From positions 124,001-188,000 of the forward strand of contig CANQXF010000002.1 in NCBI GenBank assembly GCA_947627695.1: a DNA stretch of 64,000 nt, given 5' to 3'. The notes beneath the pieces were generated by a model that worked only from the letters and a program-made list of their open reading frames with translations, was not told the DNA's origin and did not search any database. Below are positions 1 through 14,117 of this stretch, piece after piece (position 1 is the first letter of the stretch; every line of letters starts with the position of its first letter). The translations under genes were made by a program, and so were the position numbers. The DNA is from an uncultured Ruminiclostridium sp. (lineage in GTDB: Bacteria > Bacillota > Clostridia > Oscillospirales > Ruminococcaceae).

Positions 1-314
1 TCAACAATAATTCAACCCTCCGCTGATCACATCTCGTCAAGCGAACGTCAGGTTTATGCTTGCGTGACATATGCCCGCCGCATAATACTGCTGAACTTCT
101 TTTATTGAAATTTTTTTTTCAAAACGAATCCCCACCGTTGTAACTGACGGCGAATTGACGGCTGTTATCAGAAAATCGGGAGTAAAAAAATCCACCTGCT
201 GAACATTTCAGCCGTACCATGCAAAAGATTTATTGGCGAATAAATCCACAGAGGCAAGCAAATAAAACAAAGAGGCTGATATAAGATCAACCTCTTTTTA
301 TTTCTGTTATAGGT
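1..314. other. gene-free left edge of window
   Basis: No convincing gene was found here. A plus-strand frame is open from base 1 to a stop near 108 and another short open stretch ends near 240, but neither has a recognisable motif. They could be remnants of a gene entering from the left. The only structured element is a hairpin at 277-303. Confidence 0.5.
277..303. terminator. putative intrinsic terminator, possibly bidirectional
   Basis: A stem (AGAGGCTGAT pairing with ATCAACCTCT, one G-T mismatch) is followed by TTTTATTT on the plus strand and by TTTGTTTT on the minus strand. It lies just left of the left inverted repeat, so leftward transcripts leaving the invertible segment at 315 would meet it almost at once. 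Confidence 0.6.
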
Positions 315-336
315 TCGCTTATTGTTCCCATAAGCG
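315..336 (+). repeat. left inverted repeat (IRL) of putative invertible segment
   Basis: This 22-bp sequence is the exact reverse complement of 1634-1655. Each copy is itself an interrupted palindrome: arms CGCTTAT and ATAAGCG around a 7-nt asymmetric spacer. That is the form of a tyrosine-recombinase core site, with two monomer-binding arms around the crossover spacer. The two copies lie in inverted orientation around the recombinase gene. Confidence 0.8.
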
Positions 337-364
337 GTCCTAAAACTGTACATTCCTTTTTATA

Positions 365-393
365 ATTTTATCACAAAACACTGTCATTGTCAA
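365..393 (-). promoter_or_regulatory. strong outward promoter inside the inverton
   Basis: On the minus strand TTGACA (388-393), a 17-nt spacer and TAAAAT (365-370) form a near-consensus vegetative promoter. The predicted start is near 357, so the transcript leaves the segment through the left repeat. No convincing gene follows on that side within the window. Confidence 0.75.
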
Positions 394-494
394 TATGATT
401 TTTCTGACACAAAGCCTTTTTTTTATTAATAAAAAATTCAGCCATACAGTCCTCCGTCATTGTATAATTAAGAAAAAACGAGAGGTGACTTATT

Positions 495-1568
495 ATGTCA
501 AGAAAAGGTACAAACATTTACAAACGCAGGGACGGACGCTGGGAAGCGAGATATGTTAAAAGCGTTGATTCAGGCGGAAAAAAGCATTATGGGTCGGTTT
601 ACGGGAGGACTTACCGTGAAGTACGGGACAAGCAGGTAAGCTGCATAAACAATTCCGGCTCAGACTTCGGGCAGACGCATATAACCTTGTCGCAGCTTAT
701 GAGAGAGTGGCTTTTTTCCGTTTCTCTCACCGTAAAAAATTCCACCTATCGCAAGTATGAATGCCTTGTACGCAACCATATCGAGCATACACATCTGGGA
801 GATATGCAGGTCAGATCTATTACGGGGAAGGATATCAGCGCCCTGGCGTCCGAACTGCTTCTGACTCTCAGCGAAAAAAGCGTGAACGACGTTCTCACGA
901 CTGTAAATTCGGCTTTGTCATATGGGGAGGAGATCTATGGGATACCGAAAATAAAGCTGCACTATGTAAAAGAGGTACAAAAGGAAATGCGTGTGCTTTC
1001 CGTAGCCGAGCAAAAGCGGCTGGAGGCTTATCTTACAACCGATACCGACACCTGCAAATTCGGCGTCCTGCTGGCTCTTTATACGGGATTAAGATTGGGG
1101 GAGCTTTGCGCCCTGCGCTGGGAAGATGTGGGCAGGAACGAGCTTGTCGTCAGCAAAACTCTCCACAGGGTAAAGAGCGACAAGGGAACAGTCCTGGAGG
1201 TGACCACTCCCAAAACCAAAAGCTCATACCGAGTTATTCCGCTTCCCGAATTTCTCCTCCCGCTTACGGAGCAGTTCAGAAGCAGCGGCGCCGTTTTGAA
1301 AAATCATAACGGCGATTCGGTCGAGCCAAGGCTTATGCAGTACAGGTTTGAAACGTACATCAGGGAATGCGGTCTGCCTAAAACAAATTTTCACGCTTTG
1401 CGCCACACCTTTGCCACAAGGTGCGTGGAGGCGGGCTTCGACATAAAATCTCTGTCGGAGATTTTGGGGCACAGCGATGTAAAGACCACGCTGAACAGAT
1501 ACGTCCATTCATCATTTGAGCAGAAGAAAAAGAATATGGACCTTTTACAGCCTGCAAGTGAGTTATAA
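495..1568 (+). CDS. tyrosine site-specific recombinase (integrase family)
   Basis: A 357-residue recombinase of normal length. The N-terminus resembles an arm-type DNA-binding domain (about 1-50), followed by a SAM-like core-binding domain (about 60-150) and a catalytic domain with Arg200 (TGLRLGEL), the HALRH box (His300, Arg303), His326 (LGH) and the nucleophile Tyr336 (NRY). All catalytic residues look intact. GAGGTG precedes the ATG at good spacing, and a TATAAT at 463-468 is the likely -10. No excisionase or phage genes are adjacent. The gene sits between perfect inverted 22-bp sites, so it more likely catalyses inversion of its own segment than phage integration. After inversion its transcription would run leftward. 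Confidence 0.93.
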   Translation: MSRKGTNIYKRRDGRWEARYVKSVDSGGKKHYGSVYGRTYREVRDKQVSCINNSGSDFGQTHITLSQLMREWLFSVSLTVKNSTYRKYECLVRNHIEHTHLGDMQVRSITGKDISALASELLLTLSEKSVNDVLTTVNSALSYGEEIYGIPKIKLHYVKEVQKEMRVLSVAEQKRLEAYLTTDTDTCKFGVLLALYTGLRLGELCALRWEDVGRNELVVSKTLHRVKSDKGTVLEVTTPKTKSSYRVIPLPEFLLPLTEQFRSSGAVLKNHNGDSVEPRLMQYRFETYIRECGLPKTNFHALRHTFATRCVEAGFDIKSLSEILGHSDVKTTLNRYVHSSFEQKKKNMDLLQPASEL

Positions 1569-1585
1569 CACGTCAATATTCTGGT

Positions 1586-1620
1586 CAGGGCAGTGCGGAA
1601 ACTCCGCACTGCCCTGCTTT
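1586..1620 (+). terminator. recombinase terminator
   Basis: A perfect 14-bp GC-rich stem (1586-1599 with 1603-1616) with a 3-nt loop is followed by CTTTTG. It ends the recombinase transcript inside the inverted segment and insulates the lipoprotein gene from recombinase read-through in this orientation. Confidence 0.75.
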
Positions 1621-1633
1621 TGCACAGATCTTG

Positions 1634-1655
1634 CGCTTATGGGAACAATAAGCGA
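1634..1655 (-). repeat. right inverted repeat (IRR) of putative invertible segment
   Basis: Exact reverse complement of 315-336 over 22 bp; the flanking bases diverge immediately on both sides. It lies 68 bp upstream of the lipoprotein start codon, the right place for a promoter switch. Confidence 0.8.
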
Positions 1656-1722
1656 CAACACAGAACGCATTCTTTACTTTATAGTATTTCCGAAAATAAA
1701 AAAATAATTAGGGAGAATGCAT

Positions 1723-2754
1723 ATGAAAGAGAAAATAAAAACAATTACCTTTTTGTTTATTGTCACAGCGTTTTTGCTGTGCGGCTGTAACGCCGAAAAA
1801 ACGGTTGAAGATGAACGGGAACAGGGAAATTCCTCTCCGGAAAGCTCTGCTTCGCAGGAAGAAACCACCACGACGACGCAAGAGATCTTAACAACGCCGA
1901 GCGTAAGCGACACCGTTGCTGATGATGAACAACTGCAAACCGACCTGACAAACTTTGTTTCAATATTTACAGAACATGATCTGGAAATAACCGATATGCA
2001 AGTTATAAAGCGTCAGACTACCGTTGAAGACAAGGTAGATATTGTGTATGTTTCAGGCTCTGCTGAAAATGACATAGCTCTGTATAATTTCGACTATAAA
2101 ATGACGTATAACCTTTATAATGAAGGCTGGATACTGGACGAGGTGAACAAAGAAGGTTCAAGCGCAATGCCGAAAAAGGGTCCCAGTGACAATATGATAC
2201 AGCAATATGCAGAGCATAATGAAGGTATGAGTGCAAGCGACCATGATTCTTATGAAATAGGGGAAAACTACACAGAATTATCAAATGGTATCTCTGTTGT
2301 TGATATCAAATATACAGATAATTACAAAGCCGGACAGCGAACAACTACATACAGACATATTTATAAATTCAACAGCTCGAAAATGGATTGGGAATGGGAC
2401 GAAATAAAGTATATGCATAAGGAAGAGAGATATGATTTAGAAGGAGTATGGGAAGGAGAAGACTATTCGGTTAAAGTTACAATGCCCGATAACACCGATT
2501 TGTCGTCAATTAGTGTGGTTATTACTGATTTAAGAAGTAATGAGGTGGTGTATGACGGCTATACTAAAGAGGGTGTGCTTAAACGTTATGCTAATTTTTT
2601 AAATAGAAACAAACCTCATACCGATCCGATTACCGGATTGACACCTATATATGCAACTACTAACGATCATGAAAATATTTACTTTAGCAACAACGGTGTA
2701 AGCTATGAACCATATACGTATGCCGATATAATACAATTCACAAAGGTGTCCTGA
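1723..2754 (+). CDS. surface lipoprotein of unknown function
   Basis: A predicted 343-residue lipoprotein. The hydrophobic signal peptide ends in a lipobox-like LLCGC, with Cys22 the likely lipidated residue, followed by an acidic Ser/Thr-rich linker (about 25-65). The remaining 280 residues have no fold I recognise. An earlier ATG at 1717 is too close to the AGGGAG ribosome-binding site (1710-1715), so 1723 is chosen. No strong promoter is visible between the right inverted repeat and the gene; only a weak TATAGT-like box lies near 1680. This fits control by the inverton promoter. It may be the first gene of a run continuing to 7536. Confidence 0.8.
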   Translation: MKEKIKTITFLFIVTAFLLCGCNAEKTVEDEREQGNSSPESSASQEETTTTTQEILTTPSVSDTVADDEQLQTDLTNFVSIFTEHDLEITDMQVIKRQTTVEDKVDIVYVSGSAENDIALYNFDYKMTYNLYNEGWILDEVNKEGSSAMPKKGPSDNMIQQYAEHNEGMSASDHDSYEIGENYTELSNGISVVDIKYTDNYKAGQRTTTYRHIYKFNSSKMDWEWDEIKYMHKEERYDLEGVWEGEDYSVKVTMPDNTDLSSISVVITDLRSNEVVYDGYTKEGVLKRYANFLNRNKPHTDPITGLTPIYATTNDHENIYFSNNGVSYEPYTYADIIQFTKVS

Positions 2755-2831
2755 CAGCTTCCCCTGAAAATATACAACATTCCCTTTACACTTTAAATTA
2801 AATTCTTCAAAGCAAAAGGAGGGTATCTATT

Positions 2832-3668
2832 ATGTATTGCAGCCAATGCGGAAAAGAGCTTCCCGACGACGCAAAATTTTGTCAGAACTGCGGAAAGAGC
2901 ATTGACGGTTCTTCCGAACACAGCAGCAGATATGAGCCGCCCAGCTATTCACAGTCGCTCAGACGGTCGCCTACCGGAAAAGCGCTTACTATCATTTCTG
3001 TGATCATAACCTGTATAGGTTTGCTTATTGCACTGTTTTCAGATTATCTGGAACTGAGCGTAAAAACAAGTCAAATATCTATTTTTGGCACAAGTACAAA
3101 GCTGTTTTCATACAACGTCGGCTTGTTTACTATTCCCGATGTTATGGGCAAATTGCAAAGAGCCGCCGACTATACCGGAGTTCAGCTCCCCGACTCTTTG
3201 AACGTCCTGTATTTTGTGTTTTTTGTTTGGATAGTCGATATTATAATATCAGCGATCTTATTGATCAGGCGTTTTACACACTTAAGCGGAGCGAACGGCA
3301 AATATGTTTCTTTGGCATGGTATATACCTTTAACGCCTGTAATCACGAGCGTGATATTGAGCGTTGCTCTGAGTTCTGTTGAACAGAATACTTTTTCTGT
3401 GGGAGCCGAGCTTACTGGTTCTATGTATATCTTGGCGGCTCTGTTTGTCGCTGATTTTATCATCTCTCGTGCAGGCAAAAGCTTTAACGGCAAAATCGAA
3501 TATTATGAACGGCAGGAACGGGAAAGAAAGTATGCGCAGGAAAACAAACACTTCGGTTCCGGCGACAATATAAGCACCGCAGCGAGGAAGTACTGGAAAT
3601 GCAGATACTGCGGCAGATTAAACGACACAAATGTTTATTTCTGTCAAGAGTGCGGAAAAGACAGATGA
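2832..3668 (+). CDS. membrane protein with N- and C-terminal zinc ribbons
   Basis: A 278-residue protein with a zinc ribbon at each end: CSQCGKE...FCQNCG (about 3-20) and CRYCGRL...FCQECG at the C-terminus. About four hydrophobic segments lie between them (near 50-72, 125-148, 160-180, 194-212). Paired terminal CxxC motifs are common in Firmicute zinc-ribbon membrane proteins of unknown function. AAAGGAGGG precedes the ATG. It follows the lipoprotein by 77 nt and precedes the dockerin gene by 35 nt, consistent with one transcript, though an A/T-rich TTTACA-like stretch upstream could be an extra promoter. Function is not inferable. Confidence 0.8.
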   Translation: MYCSQCGKELPDDAKFCQNCGKSIDGSSEHSSRYEPPSYSQSLRRSPTGKALTIISVIITCIGLLIALFSDYLELSVKTSQISIFGTSTKLFSYNVGLFTIPDVMGKLQRAADYTGVQLPDSLNVLYFVFFVWIVDIIISAILLIRRFTHLSGANGKYVSLAWYIPLTPVITSVILSVALSSVEQNTFSVGAELTGSMYILAALFVADFIISRAGKSFNGKIEYYERQERERKYAQENKHFGSGDNISTAARKYWKCRYCGRLNDTNVYFCQECGKDR

Positions 3669-3703: not shown

Positions 3704-6169
3704 ATGAAAAAATTGAAACAAGCAGCCAAAAAACTTATATCCGCAATAGTTGCCCTCGCCCTTTTCATATCTCCCTTATCGGACTACCTGCCGATATTGG
3801 GAGAGGGAATGAAGGTGAGTGCGGCAAGTATCACTGAGAGTGGGGTGTGGCAGAAAATAGAAGAGCTAAGAAAATTATTTCCAAATGGAAGTTATTTTAC
3901 AGTTAATGATAAAACATGTGGAATGGCTAATGAGGAGCAAAGAAAAAAGCATAGCTGTAAAAATTGCCTATTGTCTAATATTCTAGCAAACAATACAAAG
4001 GCTAAAAACACGAATGTAGCAAATATATTAAATGCAAGTGATCAAAATTGTTATACCTGCGTTGCTTTTGCCAAATTTGCATATTGTTATATTTTTGGAC
4101 ACAGAAGTAATGAGAAGGACTCAAATAACACTACTATATCTAGTTCTTCATATGGTGGTGTAAACAGCACTTTTGTTTCACAATTAAAACCGGGAGATTA
4201 TTTATGCTTTTTTAAGGGCGATAATTTTGTCCATGCAGCTATATATTTAGGTTGCAATCAGAATAAAAACCAAATATACGTTTACGAAAATAATTATGGA
4301 GAATCTAGTTATAGCGAATTGTCAAAGGTTCTTTATAATAATTCCAAAGACTGCAGTAAATATAGTAAGATAACTGCTATTAGATCAAAAACATATTCAG
4401 AAACCCTCGACCTCACCACCACCCCCTTAAACCTCGGCGACCAGTTCCTCGCTGCTATTCAGTCATCTGACGGCACAAAGGCCCTGACGGTAGATTCCAA
4501 CAATAACGTCAGCATACAAAAGTACGTTGGCACGCCTAACCAGACGTGGATGTTCACCAGAACCGACGGAAATTATTATGAAATAAAGAACCCCGCAACA
4601 GGCAAATGCCTTGATGCTGCTAACGGTGGTAATTCCGACTATACGAACATACAGGTTTGGGAGGATAACGATACAAGCTCCCAAAGATACGGCATATACG
4701 GTTCACAGAACAGTTACGTTATGCGTGTGAAGTATTCTTCTGTCCTTGTCGTTGATGCCGGAGCGGCAAGAAATAATGTAAATCTTTATACATATTCCCC
4801 AAATATTGCCGCTCAGAAATTCAGGATATTCTGCCTGTTTGACAACGTCAGCGTCACAAACATAACGTCGACCAACGCTCTTGTTGCCGCAAAATTCCAT
4901 AAACCATCGGAAGCAAAGGCACTTGCGTATGACATCTCTGTTTCCACAAGCAGCAATATGCAGAATGCGGTTACACATTCCTGCAAACCTTCGTCGACAA
5001 ACGTAGGAAACACGTCCAGAGATATTACCTTTGACTTTGTCAAAGAGTACAATCATTACTTATCTGCAAATACGACATATTATTATCGTTTAATAGGCAA
5101 ATATGACATTAACGGTTCGACTGTAACATATACAAGTCCTGTTTATTCCTTCAAGACCCTTGCGGACAGCACCGACCCGTCGGTGACTGTCAAAGCTTCC
5201 ACCTCCCGTTATAAGAACACGATAACAAATACCAATGCAATAATTTACGGTGAAGTAGACAAGCCCTCAAGCTACCCCGTAACAAAGATAGGTATCCGTG
5301 TTCGTGTAGACGGTGGGACTTATGATAGCGGCTGGTCCAGATATGACGGCACGAGCAGTACGTACGTCGGTTCTACCTTTATGTGCCCATATTACGATAT
5401 GAATAAGGAACTGAAGCTGACCCTCACCCATTCTACGAAGTATTTTTACAAATTTTATGCAGTGGTGAACGGCAAGGAATATTGGAGCCCTGAAGGTTCG
5501 TTTACCACAACGGGCAGCCATTCCTTCGGTCCGTGGATAACAACAAAGCCTGCTACCTGCACCGAAAGCGGCGTACAGACAAGAAGCTGTTCCTGCGGCA
5601 AGACAGAAACACAGACTATCCCGGCAACGGGACATTCCTACGGTGCATGGACTACTACTAAAGCGCCCACCTGCACCGAAAGCGGCATACAGACAAGGAG
5701 CTGTACCAAGTGCGGAGATATGCAGACGCAGACCATTGCAGCAAAAGGACACAGCTATTCTTCAGAGTGGACAGTAGACGTACAGCCCACCTGCACCGCT
5801 GACGGCAGTAAATCTCATCATTGCACCGTATGCGGAGCAAAAACTGATATAACATCTGTCCCTGCTCTCGGACACAATTATGTGACCACCGTAGTTCCTC
5901 CTACCGTGGATTCAGACGGATATACTCTGCATCAATGCACAAGATGCTCCCACAGCTACAAAGACAACTACGTACCAAAAATATTGCTTGGCGATGTTGA
6001 CGGTGACGGGATCATAACCATCAGGGACTGTGTGCTGATAGCAAGATATTATTCGAATTGGAACGTTGACATTATAACAGAAGCTGCAGATGTGGACGGC
6101 GATGGAATAATAACTCTCCGTGACGCAATTGAAGCAGCAAGGATATATTCCGGCTGGTATAACCGGTGA
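3704..6169 (+). CDS. secreted dockerin protein: Cys-peptidase-like, ricin-type lectin, Cys-pair repeats, type I dockerin
   Basis: An 821-residue secreted modular protein. GGAGG precedes the ATG at 3704; an in-frame upstream start overlaps the previous gene and is rejected. Modules: signal peptide (about 1-40); an NlpC/P60- or CHAP-like cysteine-hydrolase region (about 65-225) with CYTCVAFAKF (Cys119 candidate nucleophile), LKPGDYL and HAAIYLG (His177); a ricin-B-like lectin region (about 243-378); a fibronectin-like stretch; three to four CTESG...RSC..CG repeats (about 605-760); and a C-terminal type I dockerin with two DVDGDGIIT calcium loops. The natural partner is the cohesin protein downstream. 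The hydrolase module is markedly richer in A+T than the rest, suggesting module exchange. Catalytic activity is not proven. Confidence 0.85.
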   Translation: MKKLKQAAKKLISAIVALALFISPLSDYLPILGEGMKVSAASITESGVWQKIEELRKLFPNGSYFTVNDKTCGMANEEQRKKHSCKNCLLSNILANNTKAKNTNVANILNASDQNCYTCVAFAKFAYCYIFGHRSNEKDSNNTTISSSSYGGVNSTFVSQLKPGDYLCFFKGDNFVHAAIYLGCNQNKNQIYVYENNYGESSYSELSKVLYNNSKDCSKYSKITAIRSKTYSETLDLTTTPLNLGDQFLAAIQSSDGTKALTVDSNNNVSIQKYVGTPNQTWMFTRTDGNYYEIKNPATGKCLDAANGGNSDYTNIQVWEDNDTSSQRYGIYGSQNSYVMRVKYSSVLVVDAGAARNNVNLYTYSPNIAAQKFRIFCLFDNVSVTNITSTNALVAAKFHKPSEAKALAYDISVSTSSNMQNAVTHSCKPSSTNVGNTSRDITFDFVKEYNHYLSANTTYYYRLIGKYDINGSTVTYTSPVYSFKTLADSTDPSVTVKASTSRYKNTITNTNAIIYGEVDKPSSYPVTKIGIRVRVDGGTYDSGWSRYDGTSSTYVGSTFMCPYYDMNKELKLTLTHSTKYFYKFYAVVNGKEYWSPEGSFTTTGSHSFGPWITTKPATCTESGVQTRSCSCGKTETQTIPATGHSYGAWTTTKAPTCTESGIQTRSCTKCGDMQTQTIAAKGHSYSSEWTVDVQPTCTADGSKSHHCTVCGAKTDITSVPALGHNYVTTVVPPTVDSDGYTLHQCTRCSHSYKDNYVPKILLGDVDGDGIITIRDCVLIARYYSNWNVDIITEAADVDGDGIITLRDAIEAARIYSGWYNR

Positions 6170-6234: not shown

Positions 6235-7536
6235 ATGAGAAAACTAATTTCTTATTTGCTGGCGGCAGCAGTTTCAGCAGGATGTATGTTTGTTCCCGCA
6301 ACTGTCAGCGCACAGGGCGATACACCTGTTGTTGTAAGCGTTGCCTTTGACAAAACCGAACTGCATACGGGAGATAAGGTGACCGCAACATTCAGCCTAG
6401 ACACGAATCCAGGTCTTATAGGAGCAGGATTCAACGTACAGTATGACAGTGATGTTATTTATGTTGCAAGTTCCGATGCATACAGTGATCCGGAGGAAAA
6501 AATATTCGATGTCTCCATGGGACTTGAAGACGGAACGGAGAACAGGAATAACTTTGGACTTACATGGTTTAATGTCGGAAATGCAAGCTCCAAGACAGGC
6601 GCATTGTGCAGTATTGAATTTACAGTGCGTGATAATGTTGATCTGTCCAAGGATGGAACGGCAGAAACCGGCTTTACTGTATCATTTGCGGTTGGCGGCT
6701 TCACAGACGGTGAACTGGAATTTGTACCCGAATCCGATATCACATTCAATTACAAAGCCCCCACAGTAGTCTGCGACCACAAGGACACCAAGACTGTCAC
6801 CACCGAACCTACCTGCGGCAAAGACGGCAAAGTCGACACCATATGCAATATATGCGGCAAAACTGTTAAGACCGAGATTCTGCCTGCAACAGGCGAGCAT
6901 ACATGGGATAACGGAACGCAGACAAAGGCTTCCACCTGCACGGACAAGGGCGAAATGACCTATAAATGTACCGTATGCGGCGAAACCAAGACAGAAGAAA
7001 CAGACGCTCTCGGCCACGATTTCGGCGATTGGCAGACAACCAAAGAACCCACCTGCACCGAAACAGGCGTAAAAGAAAGAGTCTGCACACGCTGCAATGC
7101 CAAGGAAACCGAAGAAATTGCGGCTCTCGAACACGAATTTGGCGATTGGCAGACGACCAAAGAACCCACCTGCACCGAAGCAGGCACAAAGGAAAGAGCC
7201 TGCACACGTTGCGATGCAAAGGAGACCGAAGAAATTGCGGCGCTCGGCCACACCTGGGGCGACTGGACAGTAACAAAGGAGGCTACCGAGACTGAAACAG
7301 GCGTTGAAGAGAGAACCTGCACCGTCTGCGGTGAAAAGGAAACAAGAGAGACACCCGTTCTTCAGCCCACTCCTACTGAGCCGCAGCCCACCGAACCTTC
7401 AAATACAACTGCTCCTCCTGCCAACGGCAGCCAGGACAAGATCCCCGATACAGGATATCCTTTCGCGGGACTTGCAGTTGTACTGCTTGCAGCAGCAGGC
7501 ACAGCGGCGGCGATCACCATAAAGAAGCGCAAGTAA
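6235..7536 (+). CDS. cell-wall-anchored cohesin protein (scaffoldin-like)
   Basis: A 433-residue surface protein with a signal peptide (about 1-26), one cohesin domain (about 31-172; VSVAFDKTELHTGDKVT start, GLTWFNVG and CSIEFTV strands), about four to five Cys-pair repeats (178-372) closely matching those of the dockerin protein, a Pro/Thr linker (374-400) and a C-terminal sorting signal: IPDTG (403-407), hydrophobic stretch, KKRK tail. IPDTG departs from LPxTG only at the first residue. AAAGGAGAT precedes the start. A single-cohesin wall anchor beside a dockerin protein forms a natural docking pair. No sortase gene lies in the window. The type of the cohesin is uncertain. Confidence 0.85.
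   Translation: MRKLISYLLAAAVSAGCMFVPATVSAQGDTPVVVSVAFDKTELHTGDKVTATFSLDTNPGLIGAGFNVQYDSDVIYVASSDAYSDPEEKIFDVSMGLEDGTENRNNFGLTWFNVGNASSKTGALCSIEFTVRDNVDLSKDGTAETGFTVSFAVGGFTDGELEFVPESDITFNYKAPTVVCDHKDTKTVTTEPTCGKDGKVDTICNICGKTVKTEILPATGEHTWDNGTQTKASTCTDKGEMTYKCTVCGETKTEETDALGHDFGDWQTTKEPTCTETGVKERVCTRCNAKETEEIAALEHEFGDWQTTKEPTCTEAGTKERACTRCDAKETEEIAALGHTWGDWTVTKEATETETGVEERTCTVCGEKETRETPVLQPTPTEPQPTEPSNTTAPPANGSQDKIPDTGYPFAGLAVVLLAAAGTAAAITIKKRK
7012..7250 (+). repeat. 117-bp tandem repeats inside the cohesin gene
   Basis: Two adjacent units (for example 7024-7062 and 7141-7179) are nearly identical at DNA level with a 117-bp period, encoding 39-residue Cys-pair repeats. Such units can expand or contract by recombination without changing frame, so spacer length of the wall anchor may vary between strains. 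Confidence 0.75.
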
Positions 7537-7545
7537 AAACAAAAA

Positions 7546-7575
7546 ATTGCAGTCATCACAGTGACTGCAATTTTT
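7546..7575 (+). terminator. terminator after the cohesin gene
   Basis: Stem ATTGCAGTCA / TGACTGCAAT is followed by a run of nine T. The preceding A-run lets it also serve the convergent glycosyltransferase gene. Confidence 0.9.
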
Positions 7576-7587
7576 TTTTAACTTTTT

Positions 7588-10123: not shown

Positions 10124-10157
10124 CCTCTGAAAAGCATTGCTTTTCAGAGGCTTTTTT
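10124..10157 (+). terminator. terminator
   Basis: Perfect 12-bp stem CCTCTGAAAAGC / GCTTTTCAGAGG with a 3-nt loop, followed by CTTTTTTG. Confidence 0.9.
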
Positions 10158-10178
10158 GTTGTAATTTTTTGTCGTATA

Positions 10179-10207
10179 TTGACGAATTTTGTTATTTTGT
10201 GTATAAT
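10179..10207 (+). promoter_or_regulatory. promoter of the double-AAA+ protease gene
   Basis: TTGACG, 17-nt spacer, TATAAT. The start codon at 10278 lies about 70 bp downstream. Confidence 0.75.
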
Positions 10208-10277
10208 TACAGTATGTACATTTATCGTATCTGCCGCCGTTTGCACCAAAGCAAACGCCCTAAAAGGAGAAAGCGCT

Positions 10278-13200
10278 ATGAATATAACCAATAGAAAATT
10301 TCTGGACGCAATAATAGAGCATATCAAAAGCGGTTTTGAACCTGACGAAACAACGTTGATAACAGAGGAACATTTCATTTTATCTGTCCTTGATTTTATA
10401 ACAGGCAAGGTGGAATATACGTACGATAATACGTACGATAAATTGGAAAAGTTGCGCCTTATAATTATTATGGCGTGCAACGTACCTATGCTCGTAATTG
10501 ACGCTCCTATGTTTGCAAATAGAGAAGAGAAACTGAGAGAGATGCTCACTGAACGTGTCTCCTATTACAGAACTTCCAAATATGAAAAAGCGGAGTTTTT
10601 CTCTGATGGTCACCTTTTAGAAGATCACATTAAAGTGTTGAAAGAAAATTCGCCTTTTGTCTCAAGTTTGGAACCAATATTGACGCCAAGCATGGTCCTG
10701 GAGAGCATTTTTCGCCAACCGAGCGTTTACGTTGCATCTAACGTTATGAATAACTTTTGGTGCAGCCCTCAGACCGAATACAGCAAAAAAGCCGAAATAT
10801 CCCATATCATAGATATGGTGAACAAGCTGTACGACTTTATGATAAACGGATATAACGTAACCGATCGCATGTTGACGGCTGTAATGGCGGGAAAGGATGA
10901 TTCAACGCCGCTAACGTTGAGTGACGTTAAAAAATATCTCGACAAGCACAATTATGCACTTTCTTTCTTCAGAGACGTCAATGATCTGGAAATGACGGTT
11001 TCCCGACAAGGCGGGGTCCTGAAAAATTTTCTGGAACAGCAGGACGAGTCTCAAAATGAAGACGATGATGACGAAGATGATAACGACGAAGAAGATGAAG
11101 ATGAAGACAATGACGACGATGACGATGAAGACGATGAAGACGAAGACAACTATGAATCATATGATAACGACTACGAATTTGAAAGAACTCCCGAGGAAGC
11201 AAGATCAGCATTGTCAATGCTGACAATGAGAGTCAAAAATATGTATGACGAGCTGAGGGACGAGGTATTCGGACAGGAAAACGCCGTCAGCATTTTCACC
11301 TCGGGATATTTCCACTCGGAGCTTCTTGTCATGACGGACAAGCACAGAGTGAGACCCCGCGCTACGTTCCTTTTTGCAGGACCTCCGGGTGTGGGAAAAA
11401 CCTTCCTTGCGGAAAAGGCGGCTGGGATACTTGAAGTGCCTTTCAAGCGCTTTGATATGAGCGAATATTCCGACAAGGAGGCAAATCTTGCCTTCTGCGG
11501 CACGGGAAAGGTGTATAAAAATTCCTACAAAGGAAATGTTACAGGCTTCGTCGCAAAGCACCCTAAGTGCGTTCTTCTTTTTGACGAAATAGAAAAGGCG
11601 CATATCAACATTATACACTTGTTTTTGCAGCTGCTTGACGCAGGCAGGCTGAGGGACAACTATACCGAAAAGGAAGTTTCATTTAAAGACGCCATAGTTA
11701 TATTCACCACCAACGCAGGCAGACAGCTTTACGAGGAGACCGACGCAGGCGATTTTTCCCGCATTACCCGCAAGGTAGTGCTTGATGCGCTGGAAAAGGA
11801 CGTAAATCCCGAAAAAGGCGTGCCTTTCTTCCCGCAGGCGATATGCTCCCGCTTTGCGTCGGGGAACGTGGTGATGTTCAACAGGATAGGCTCAGGCAGT
11901 CTGAGGGAGATAGCAAAGCGTGAAATACTCCGCCACGCCTGCAATTTTGAGCAGGAAATGGGCATAAAGGTGAGCATAGACGAGCAGGTCTACACCGCCT
12001 TGCTTTTTGCCGAGGGCGGAACTGCCGATGCAAGAACCATCAGGAGCCGCGCAGAAACGTTCTTCGACGACGAGCTTTTCGAGCTTTTCCGCCTTATAGC
12101 GTCGGAAAAAGCGCCAAGCTGTATAGAGGACCTTGAGAAGATATCCATAAGCGTCGACCTGCCCCGTGATAACGAGGATATAATGTCTTTGTTTGTAAAC
12201 AAGGAGAAATGCGAAACGCTGATATACGCCTCGAAAAAGACCTGCTCACAATGCGCCAAGCTTTGCCCTGACGTCGATTTTACGCGTATCTGCGATACCG
12301 CGGCGGCAAAGTCCGCACTTCACGATAAGGAAACTAACGTGGTGCTTATCGACCTGCTTTACGGAAAATCCGCAAATTCAAAATATCTTAACATCGAGGA
12401 CGTAGAGTCTGAGGCAAGGGACCTTTTCCGCTTTATCAGGAACGATTACACTGATATTCCCGTATATATCCTCCAGCAAAGCGGAAGGGAGCTTAATGCG
12501 GAGGAGCAGGTCTCCCTTCTTCGCCAGGGCGCAAGCGGCTTTATCACTCTTTCGGCGAACGGCGAGGATTTCTCGGAGGACTTTCACAGTATCTGCGAAA
12601 CGATACATCAGCAGCACAGCACCGACGAGCTTGCAAGAGCAAACAAGCTCATCACCTTTGAAACGGCACAGCTTTTGAAAAACGACGGCAAAAGCGCCGA
12701 GATAAGGCTGTTTGATTTCGATATGGCAGTTGCGGTCAGCGCAGAGGACGCGGAAAATATTTTAAGCAAGGTATCAAAGCCCGACGTAAGATTTGACCAG
12801 GTAATAGGTGCAAACGACGCCAAGAAAGAGCTTACGTATTTTGTGGAATATCTGAAAAATCCCAAGAAATATATAGGCACAGGAGTGAGCGCACCTAAAG
12901 GCGTACTGCTTTACGGTCCTCCGGGAACGGGCAAGACAATGCTTGCCAAGGCTATGGCGTGCGAATCTGACGTTACCTTTATCGCCACGGAGGGGAACAG
13001 CTTCCTGAAGAAATACGTGGGCGAGGGTCCCGAAAAGGTCCACGAGCTGTTCAGGACCGCCAGAAAATACGCCCCTGCGATTTTGTTCATAGATGAAATA
13101 GATGCAATCGCCAAGGAGAGAAAAGGCGATACTTCAGGCTCGGAGGCGACACTTACCGCTTTCCTTGCGGAAATGGACGGCTTCAGGAACGACAGCGCAA

Positions 13201-14117
13201 AGCCCGTGTTCGTGCTTGCCACCACCAACTTTGACGTTGAGCCGGGCGGCAGCAAAAGCCTTGACCCCGCCCTTATGCGCAGGTTTGACCGCAGAGTTTA
13301 CATCGATCTTCCCAATCGTGAGGAGCGTAAACAGTACATCGATATCAGACTGAAAGAAAACAGTATGTTTGACGTAAGCGATGAAACGGCGGACAATATT
13401 GCGCTTCGTTCCGCAGGAATGAGCCTTGCGGAGCTTGAGTCGTTCATTGAGCTTGCCCTGCGCACCGCCGTCAGAGACGGAGCTCTCAAGGTGAACGACG
13501 CCGCGTTTGAGGAATCCTTTGAGGAATTTAACGCAGGCGAGGAGAAAAAGTGGGATCTGCCCGCCCAGGAGCGCACCGCGCGGCACGAGGCGGGACACAC
13601 CCTGCTTTGCTGGCTTAGCGGGAACACTCCGCCCTATGTCACGATAGTTTCAAGGGGGAGCTACGGCGGCTATATGCAAAATGCGGATAATGAAAGAAAA
13701 ATGCTTTACACCAAGGAAGAGCTTCTTTCAAAAATACGCACCTGCCTTGGCGGAAGAGCAGCGGAGATAGTTTACTACGGCGAAAAGGAGGGTCTGTCCA
13801 CGGGAGCGTCAGGCGACTTGTCCACCGCTACCAACATCGCCCGCAGTATCATCTGCTCCTACGGTATGGACGATTCCTTCGGAATGTCGGTAGTTGCGGG
13901 ACGCGCCTCCATGAACAGCGAGCTGACCGAAAAAATACGCACCGCCGTTAACGGGATACTTGTAGATGAAATGAGCGCGGCGATCCGCCTTATCGAGAGC
14001 AGCAAGTCCGCCATAGACGCATTGTCCGACGCCCTTATGAAACGCAGTCATCTTAACGGAGCAGAAATATCGTCTCTGCTGGAAAAATACTCCCCCAAAA
14101 AAGGCGCTTCGGAATAA
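10278..14117 (+). CDS. fusion of Clp-type AAA+, receiver-like domain and FtsH-type AAA+/M41 metalloprotease
   Basis: A 1279-residue protein with an unusual order. Residues 1-250 are unrecognised helical sequence; 255-300 is an almost pure Asp/Glu tract. A Clp/Hsp100-type AAA+ module follows (about 320-600; Walker A GPPGVGKT 368-375, Walker B LLFDEIEKAH). Residues about 645-765 resemble a receiver domain (VVLID with Asp692, RQGASGFITLS). An FtsH-like AAA+ comes next (about 835-1070; GPPGTGKT 880-887, ILFIDEID) and then an M41 peptidase with HEAGH (1103-1107) and TGASGD, whose Asp1180 would be the third zinc ligand. FtsH's N-terminal membrane segments are absent, so the protein is probably cytosolic. 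Start at 10278 follows AAAGGAGAAAG. Both ATPase sites and the zinc site look intact. Substrate unknown. Confidence 0.88.
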   Translation: MNITNRKFLDAIIEHIKSGFEPDETTLITEEHFILSVLDFITGKVEYTYDNTYDKLEKLRLIIIMACNVPMLVIDAPMFANREEKLREMLTERVSYYRTSKYEKAEFFSDGHLLEDHIKVLKENSPFVSSLEPILTPSMVLESIFRQPSVYVASNVMNNFWCSPQTEYSKKAEISHIIDMVNKLYDFMINGYNVTDRMLTAVMAGKDDSTPLTLSDVKKYLDKHNYALSFFRDVNDLEMTVSRQGGVLKNFLEQQDESQNEDDDDEDDNDEEDEDEDNDDDDDEDDEDEDNYESYDNDYEFERTPEEARSALSMLTMRVKNMYDELRDEVFGQENAVSIFTSGYFHSELLVMTDKHRVRPRATFLFAGPPGVGKTFLAEKAAGILEVPFKRFDMSEYSDKEANLAFCGTGKVYKNSYKGNVTGFVAKHPKCVLLFDEIEKAHINIIHLFLQLLDAGRLRDNYTEKEVSFKDAIVIFTTNAGRQLYEETDAGDFSRITRKVVLDALEKDVNPEKGVPFFPQAICSRFASGNVVMFNRIGSGSLREIAKREILRHACNFEQEMGIKVSIDEQVYTALLFAEGGTADARTIRSRAETFFDDELFELFRLIASEKAPSCIEDLEKISISVDLPRDNEDIMSLFVNKEKCETLIYASKKTCSQCAKLCPDVDFTRICDTAAAKSALHDKETNVVLIDLLYGKSANSKYLNIEDVESEARDLFRFIRNDYTDIPVYILQQSGRELNAEEQVSLLRQGASGFITLSANGEDFSEDFHSICETIHQQHSTDELARANKLITFETAQLLKNDGKSAEIRLFDFDMAVAVSAEDAENILSKVSKPDVRFDQVIGANDAKKELTYFVEYLKNPKKYIGTGVSAPKGVLLYGPPGTGKTMLAKAMACESDVTFIATEGNSFLKKYVGEGPEKVHELFRTARKYAPAILFIDEIDAIAKERKGDTSGSEATLTAFLAEMDGFRNDSAKPVFVLATTNFDVEPGGSKSLDPALMRRFDRRVYIDLPNREERKQYIDIRLKENSMFDVSDETADNIALRSAGMSLAELESFIELALRTAVRDGALKVNDAAFEESFEEFNAGEEKKWDLPAQERTARHEAGHTLLCWLSGNTPPYVTIVSRGSYGGYMQNADNERKMLYTKEELLSKIRTCLGGRAAEIVYYGEKEGLSTGASGDLSTATNIARSIICSYGMDDSFGMSVVAGRASMNSELTEKIRTAVNGILVDEMSAAIRLIESSKSAIDALSDALMKRSHLNGAEISSLLEKYSPKKGASE

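Follow-up and report, generated by a model that had tools for sequence, protein, structure and literature searches.

A probable self-contained promoter inverton upstream of a cohesin/dockerin operon in an uncultured Ruminiclostridium sp.

In the H segment of Salmonella, an outward-facing promoter is located inside a pair of inverted sites, and the recombinase of this segment, Hin, is a serine recombinase. Tyrosine recombinases acting on inverted sites invert the DNA between them and do not excise it. In the amylosome of Ruminococcus bromii and in cellulosomes, cohesin is carried by a protein anchored to the cell wall, and its partners bear dockerins; the display of cohesin/dockerin complexes is usually regarded as constitutive or regulated by the substrate.

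In the sections cited here, Hin is given as an example of a recombinase within an invertible segment, and RecV of Clostridioides difficile is described as a tyrosine recombinase inverting segments upstream of surface genes, namely, cwpV and flagellar genes (PMC5903667). The hsdS inverton of Streptococcus pneumoniae contains an invertase gene according to the cited part of PMC12324116, where PsrA is named as a tyrosine recombinase in the title of a reference. Recombinases inside their own switch (Hin, and PsrA in hsdS) are already known, as are invertible promoters. A 2025 survey contains, in the part cited, Clostridia inverton group 139 and invertase group 35, with 33 invertons, all but one from Clostridia, and tyrosine-type recombinases nearby; invertases intersecting an inverton or lying at most 5 kb from it were counted and were termed generally non-regulatable (PMC11892184). 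In open-licence PubMed Central, to the exclusion of subscription papers, no work combining cohesin, dockerin and invertible DNA was found, and a search for cellulosome together with phase variation gave four papers, none with either term in its title or abstract. Among the titles listed by searches of the same open-licence literature for the design described below, none named such a cassette, which is weak evidence of absence.

The stretch of DNA analysed, referred to as the window, comprises 64,000 nt of an uncultured Ruminiclostridium sp. (assembly GCA_947627695.1, contig CANQXF010000002.1, positions 124,001-188,000, forward strand). The segment 315-1655 of the window is very probably a self-contained promoter inverton, flipped by the tyrosine recombinase nested in it and controlling a cohesin/dockerin operon (Table 1). 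This reading draws on the anatomy of the segment, its conservation across a family of cassettes, opposite orientations among relatives and the layout of the operon; in this strain, the copy in the window would flip as well. Similar to the H segment, the recombinase and an outward promoter are contained in the segment, and inversion would connect or disconnect an operon of surface proteins; unlike Hin, the recombinase is an unrelated enzyme of the tyrosine type, the sites have a 7-7-7 structure and cohesin/dockerin genes are the likely target. In C. difficile, one RecV serves several switches (PMC5903667, sections cited), whereas here each cassette has its own recombinase. The hsdS/PsrA system shuffles coding sequences of a specificity subunit, while the present cassette would flip a promoter. 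Group 35 invertases are linked to their invertons by proximity in the cited part of PMC11892184, which describes for them neither nesting nor a conserved outward promoter, both features of the present cassettes.

Table 1. Coordinates of the inverton cassette, its predicted regulatory signals and the adjacent operon in the window.
Feature	Position	Strand	Basis
Terminator-like hairpin facing the outward promoter in the drawn state	269-297	.	Hairpin search and folding; minus-strand entry only in the terminator scan
Left recombination site, 7-7-7, spacer TGTTCCC	315-336	+	Inverted-repeat search, window-wide site scan
Predicted outward promoter of sigma-70 type, TTGACA-17-TAAAAT, TG ahead of -10	365-393	-	Promoter scan, family conservation
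Nested tyrosine recombinase of 357 aa, flanked by its own sites	495-1568	+	Pfam domains, alignment
Probable terminator of the recombinase gene within the cassette: GC-rich hairpin of 14 bp, then CTTTTG	1586-1616	+	Hairpin search, folding
Right recombination site, exact inverted copy of the left site	1634-1655	-	Inverted-repeat search, window-wide site scan
Lipoprotein-like secreted protein, gene 1; probable start ATG 1723	1717-2754	+	ORF list
Zinc-ribbon protein with hydrophobic stretches (by eye), gene 2	2832-3668	+	Pfam
Gene 3, secreted protein: ricin-B lectin domain, type I dockerin at the C-terminus	3704-6169	+	Domain scan
Cohesin-domain protein with C-terminal sortase-type anchor, gene 4 (last)	6235-7536	+	Pfam, profile search
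Strong bidirectional terminator after the operon	7541-7576	.	Terminator scans, folding

The cassette of 1.34 kb is bounded by inverted repeats and contains a single recombinase gene; it runs from one site through the outward promoter, the divergent recombinase gene and a hairpin to the other site. The inverted-repeat search confirmed what the preliminary description had reported, namely, two exact reverse complements of 22 bp, each a two-armed palindrome with a 7-nt spacer, and a recombinase between them; the frame of the recombinase is intact. Each site reads CGCTTAT-TGTTCCC-ATAAGCG, with 7-bp arms around a 7-bp spacer; the spacer is asymmetric and is read in opposite directions at the left and right sites. 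The 21-bp core is present at only two places in the 64-kb window with up to three mismatches permitted, while 100 shuffles gave an expectation of 0. A whole-genome scan with three mismatches added one match, C1:196480, which was dropped as a third site because it lies within sequence that appears by eye to be coding.

Domain searches assign the nested protein to tyrosine recombinases and not to serine recombinases of the resolvase/invertase type: it contains the Pfam domain Phage_integrase (E 3e-24) and a SAM-like N-terminal core-binding domain. Residues R200, K240, H300-x-x-R303, H326 and Y336, which we take to be the catalytic positions (R, K, HxxR, H and Y), are invariant among nine aligned sequences. 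The recombinase gene is closed, inside the right site, by a hairpin of -30 kcal/mol (z -6.3), new relative to the preliminary description and missing from the terminator scan because of its short T-run. Elsewhere in this genome, four partial recombinase matches were found at contig ends (C8, C12, C23 and C24). To the left of the window, an integrated element of approximately 4.8 kb with its own integrase occupies a tRNA-Met gene (L004:6898-11751); it was considered as a carrier of the cassette, and it stops 564 bp to the left of it.

The promoter just within the left site, with hexamers running from 393 to 365, matches 11 of the 12 consensus positions and is the highest-scoring of the seven promoter-like sites in 1-3000. 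Since this number is no higher than in shuffles (6.7 expected), the argument for the promoter rests on its quality, position and conservation. As drawn, it faces a hairpin with a T-rich tail on both strands. In-silico inversion of the segment brings the end of the -10 element to 1605 and the start, predicted at about 1612, to 111 nt upstream of the lipoprotein ATG. Each of these elements had been anticipated, with the terminator put at 277-303 and the distance to the lipoprotein at about 110 nt, and the layout also bears out the earlier view of the drawn orientation, which is the predicted OFF state for the genes to the right. The outward promoter is presumably active.

The proposed mechanism is as follows. 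The recombinase would bind the two 7-bp arms of each site and synapse the inverted pair, and strand exchange across the 7-bp spacer would invert the 1.34-kb cassette. Because expression of the recombinase originates in the cassette itself, the enzyme can be made in both states. In the OFF state the promoter would fire to the left into the hairpin; in the ON state it would fire to the right across the site, through a leader of about 110 nt, into the operon up to its terminator. A clonal population would thereby be divided, a cohesin/dockerin surface complex being present on some cells and absent from others.

The four genes to the right of the cassette share one direction and are likely the target operon of the inverton. 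No strong plus-strand terminators were found between them in the terminator scan; one weak candidate lies within the zinc-ribbon gene, and a weak promoter-like match at 2806 (9 of 12 positions) could serve this second gene as its own promoter. Co-transcription of all four genes under the cassette promoter is the arrangement suggested by this layout. The cohesin/dockerin nature of the operon was missed in the preliminary description. The first protein has no match in Pfam or NCBIfam, and it is called lipoprotein-like on the basis of what we take to be a lipobox. The cohesin domain scores 25.0 in Pfam, barely above the cut-off of 24.1, and cohesin-like proteins of four relatives score 42.1, 22.4, 22.6 and 19.9, three of them below the cut-off. 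A profile built from this cohesin and three relatives matches solved scaffoldin cohesins over approximately 75 positions, with the best E-value of 7.4e-7 (3l8q); an AlphaFold model of the domain from a single sequence had a pLDDT of 43 and was set aside. The C-terminus of the same protein contains what is presumably a sortase-type wall-anchor motif. The lectin/dockerin protein and a protein from a cassette operon of genome G261 have their N-terminal sequence and domain set in common.

Similar to the amylosome and cellulosomes, a wall-anchored cohesin, of marginal score, and a dockerin partner are present here, and the cohesin may bind the dockerin within the operon. Unlike those systems, the operon follows an inverton, and domain scans detected no glycoside hydrolase domain, and so no dockerin-bearing carbohydrate-active enzyme, among its four proteins. 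Genome searches found one cohesin, that of the operon, and two dockerins, one in the operon and the other in a large protein that is subtilase-like by eye.

Three genomes carry the nearest cassettes, and the dockerins found there are encoded on the same strand as a cassette and downstream of it in 4 of 4 cases (G230), 3 of 3 (G259) and 6 of 7 (G261), that is, in 13 of 14, or in 14 of 16 with this genome. All four cassette operons of these genomes (one in G230, one in G259 and two in G261) end in a cohesin-like protein, and each cohesin found in these genomes is located behind a cassette. The second such protein of G261 scores 19.9 bits, below both the cut-off and the threshold of the whole-genome search, which listed one; accordingly, the suggestion of exactly one cohesin per relative was rejected. 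No dockerins were found in G215, G132 and G015, chosen as genomes without these close cassettes; G215 has a 48% identical relative of the recombinase without clear sites. Cohesins at 1e-4 were found in 26 of the 71 genomes of the genus, so that cohesins of the genus are mostly located elsewhere and the linkage is a trait of the clade of cassettes to which that of the window belongs. The first target genes in this clade encode proteins with leucine-rich repeats (LRR), with a dockerin in L121-L123 and alone in L120; the first target encodes a cohesin in L160 and LRRs in L161. The lipoprotein of the window stands outside this pattern: its homologs were found in 2 of 70 other genomes of the genus, whereas the family sample, with 147 genomes besides this one, gave none, and this first target gene is therefore not conserved along with the cassette.

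Searches with the recombinase gave matches in 32 of 197 genomes of the family at 1e-60 and in 18 of 71 genomes of the genus at 1e-40, this genome being counted in both. A first set of 83 loci was composed of three loci of this genome and, from other genomes, 40 loci each from the family (53 places) and the genus (45 places). Ungapped inverted repeats around the gene, with a score of at least 14 and above all 30 shuffles of the locus, were found in 74 of the 83 loci, with the exception of L075, L079, L088, L091, L096, L124, L134, L136 and L158; L075, L088 and L158 lie near contig ends. A single-recombinase query against the genome and viral contig collections gave no confirmed relatives. A second set was found with an alignment query in genomes bearing names; it was taken from the best 80 of 564 matches, and 70 loci remained after removal of 10 exact duplicates. 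Sites were present in 54 of these and absent from 16. Among the siteless loci of both sets, 8 of 25 have less than 350 bp of contig on one side. For distant tyrosine recombinases of this genome and of viral contigs, used as a control, sites were found in 1 of 53 cases, and that repeat is tRNA-like.

In 68 of the 74 cassettes of the first set, a promoter with a score of at least 10 faces outward by the 5' end of the recombinase gene, compared with 1 of 74 for stretches of equal length facing the other site, which include coding sequence. The mean score is 11.6 against 7.4 in the latter (p 7e-14) and against 8.4 in composition shuffles of the same stretch (p 8e-14), the shuffles being the fairer control. 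The second set gave 42 of 54 against 3 of 54 for the other side. As the loci of the family are kin, these counts are not independent trials.

Among the loci from viral collections, 6 of 18 non-duplicates (L240, L242, L243, L244, L246 and L247) carry inverted sites and outward promoters, and prophages may therefore hold such switches. A cassette is also present in L162, from a record named Ruminococcus bromii YE282. In genomes G258 and G262 the cassettes have multiplied. The first target gene of L131, L133, L135, L137 and L138 encodes a second tyrosine recombinase of 310 aa, identified by domain scan in L131 and by homology in the other four.

Spacers were compared in 122 site pairs, six of the 128 being left out because their arms were far longer than a site. 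The central 5 bp are equal within the pair in 120 of 122 cases (605 of 610 positions), while between loci 28.8% of positions are equal and identity was seen in 26 of 7381 comparisons. In 110 of 122 pairs the two sites have the same full assigned spacer. The pairs were selected by similarity, which in itself accounts for part of the agreement within pairs and of the rise in mismatches towards the arms. More weight was therefore put on concerted changes: in L121 and L122, with cassettes 95.9% identical, and in L196 and L202, with cassettes 93.0% identical, the spacers differ between loci and have changed jointly at both ends. The unequal spacers of L086 are a counter-example. Strand exchange by tyrosine recombinases requires the two crossover regions of a pair to be identical, and each recombinase of the family appears to keep its own spacer sequence.

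Both orientations are observed among relatives, and the clearest case is the pair L192 and L194 from the rabbit gut, named uncultured Oscillospiraceae, with cassettes 97.2% identical over 1485 bp. In L192, a flank of 5826 bp beginning with an S-layer-homology (SLH) protein joins the 5' end of the recombinase gene; in L194, the same 5.8-kb flank (95.6%) joins the 3' end, inverted, and the change is located at the site. The contig of L192 stops at the right site, and one flank only can be compared. A 56-nt repeat at this contig end was dropped, as the match ends 2 nt before the contig end amid tandem sites; tandem copies of the recombination site at cassette edges are found in L168, L192, L194 and L216. 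In L131 and L135, both of genome G262, the cassettes (85.7%) run in one direction and the flank with the target, 93.6% identical over 981 bp, runs in the opposite one, with the boundary inside the site. Weaker pairs of opposite orientation are L196/L202, L155/L157, L218/L230, L068/L071 and L005/L059. As a counterweight, L182/L183/L184/L186, L146/L147, L121/L122 and L005/L140 are near-identical yet share one orientation. For outward ORFs starting at most 1.2 kb from a site, 50 rows of protein matches were on opposite sides and 156 on the same side, the rows not being independent events.

The contig end of L090 is an exact 55-nt inverted copy of its own other flank, a hint of both orientations within one assembly; a similar repeat in L190 was dropped because of mismatches. 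By a simple ORF rule, the 128 loci comprised 60 with ORFs on the right only (OFF), 20 on the left only (ON), 13 with both and 35 with none. As the rule misassigns some loci, such as L194, called left despite an SLH protein to the right, and L059, called none, only a lean towards OFF is claimed. The loci L005 (G000:C12) and L059 (G000:C9) are two further complete cassettes of this genome; by layout L005 looks OFF and L059 ON, and each adjoins a surface protein of approximately 2300 aa with no Pfam match.

The family may invert while the copy in the window is locked, with its operon constitutively OFF or transcribed from other promoters. The window copy is known from one assembly in a single orientation, and the four closest cassettes (L120-L123, 56-71% identical) are all OFF like it, as would suit such a fossil. 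Decay would be expected to erode the sites, the promoter and the recombinase, but no difference separates the two sites over their 22 bp, spacer included, the promoter is near consensus, and the open frame of the recombinase retains the presumed catalytic positions; a locked switch is thus improbable.

The transposon-end alternative named in the preliminary description, in which the segment would be a small mobile element with the repeats as its terminal inverted repeats, moved by the recombinase as a transposon or insertion, is disfavoured. A single gene between inverted repeats does resemble an insertion sequence, and near-identical loci occur under different genus names: L182, L184 and L186, named Butyricicoccus, Agathobaculum and Negativibacillus, share an identical cassette region of 13.1 kb, of which L183, named Blautia, has 8.8 kb in common, owing either to recent transfer or to mislabelled contigs. 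These shared regions extend well beyond the cassette, however, and no target duplication is seen by eye at 307-314 and 1656-1663. In L131, L133, L135, L137 and L138 the sites lie 33-60 bp from homologous targets, and the paralogs L131/L135 and L133/L137/L138 have the cassette together with the target in common, not the cassette alone. Given also that inverted sites of a tyrosine recombinase lead to inversion and not excision, transposition is very unlikely to account for the segment. Equally hard to credit is a reading of the palindromes as operators, bound by the recombinase or another dimeric protein at a divergent promoter with no DNA inversion, because, although each site is two-armed and binding at the left one could affect the outward promoter, opposite orientations of near-identical loci with breakpoints at the site would be left unexplained and joint spacer changes at both ends would be superfluous. 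Phase inversion by the nested recombinase, as proposed earlier, is best supported by the conserved sites and promoter and by the two orientations among relatives.

We lean towards the wider view that a wall-anchored cohesin, dockerin-tailed lectins and LRR adhesins stand behind a self-flipping cassette, and that this cassette belongs to a large portable family of switches in Clostridia, each with its own recombinase and spacer "address", placed before S-layer, adhesin, pilus-type, signalling and cohesin/dockerin operons. The findings suggest that the display of cohesin/dockerin complexes is subject to bet-hedging in some gut Clostridia. The cassette design is recognisable from the sequence, and ON and OFF states can be read from a single assembly; with an apparently separate spacer for each recombinase, the family is also a source of matched recombinase-site pairs for the study of site choice.

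In L099, approximately 131 bp outside both sites are duplicated in inverted orientation, and homologous surface-protein genes start on each side, suggesting that the promoter there may alternate between two proteins. Farther to the right in the window, 10137-14117 is a single frame of 1326 aa that reads by eye as two AAA+ modules in one chain, one of Clp type and the other of FtsH type with a metalloprotease-like HEAGH motif.
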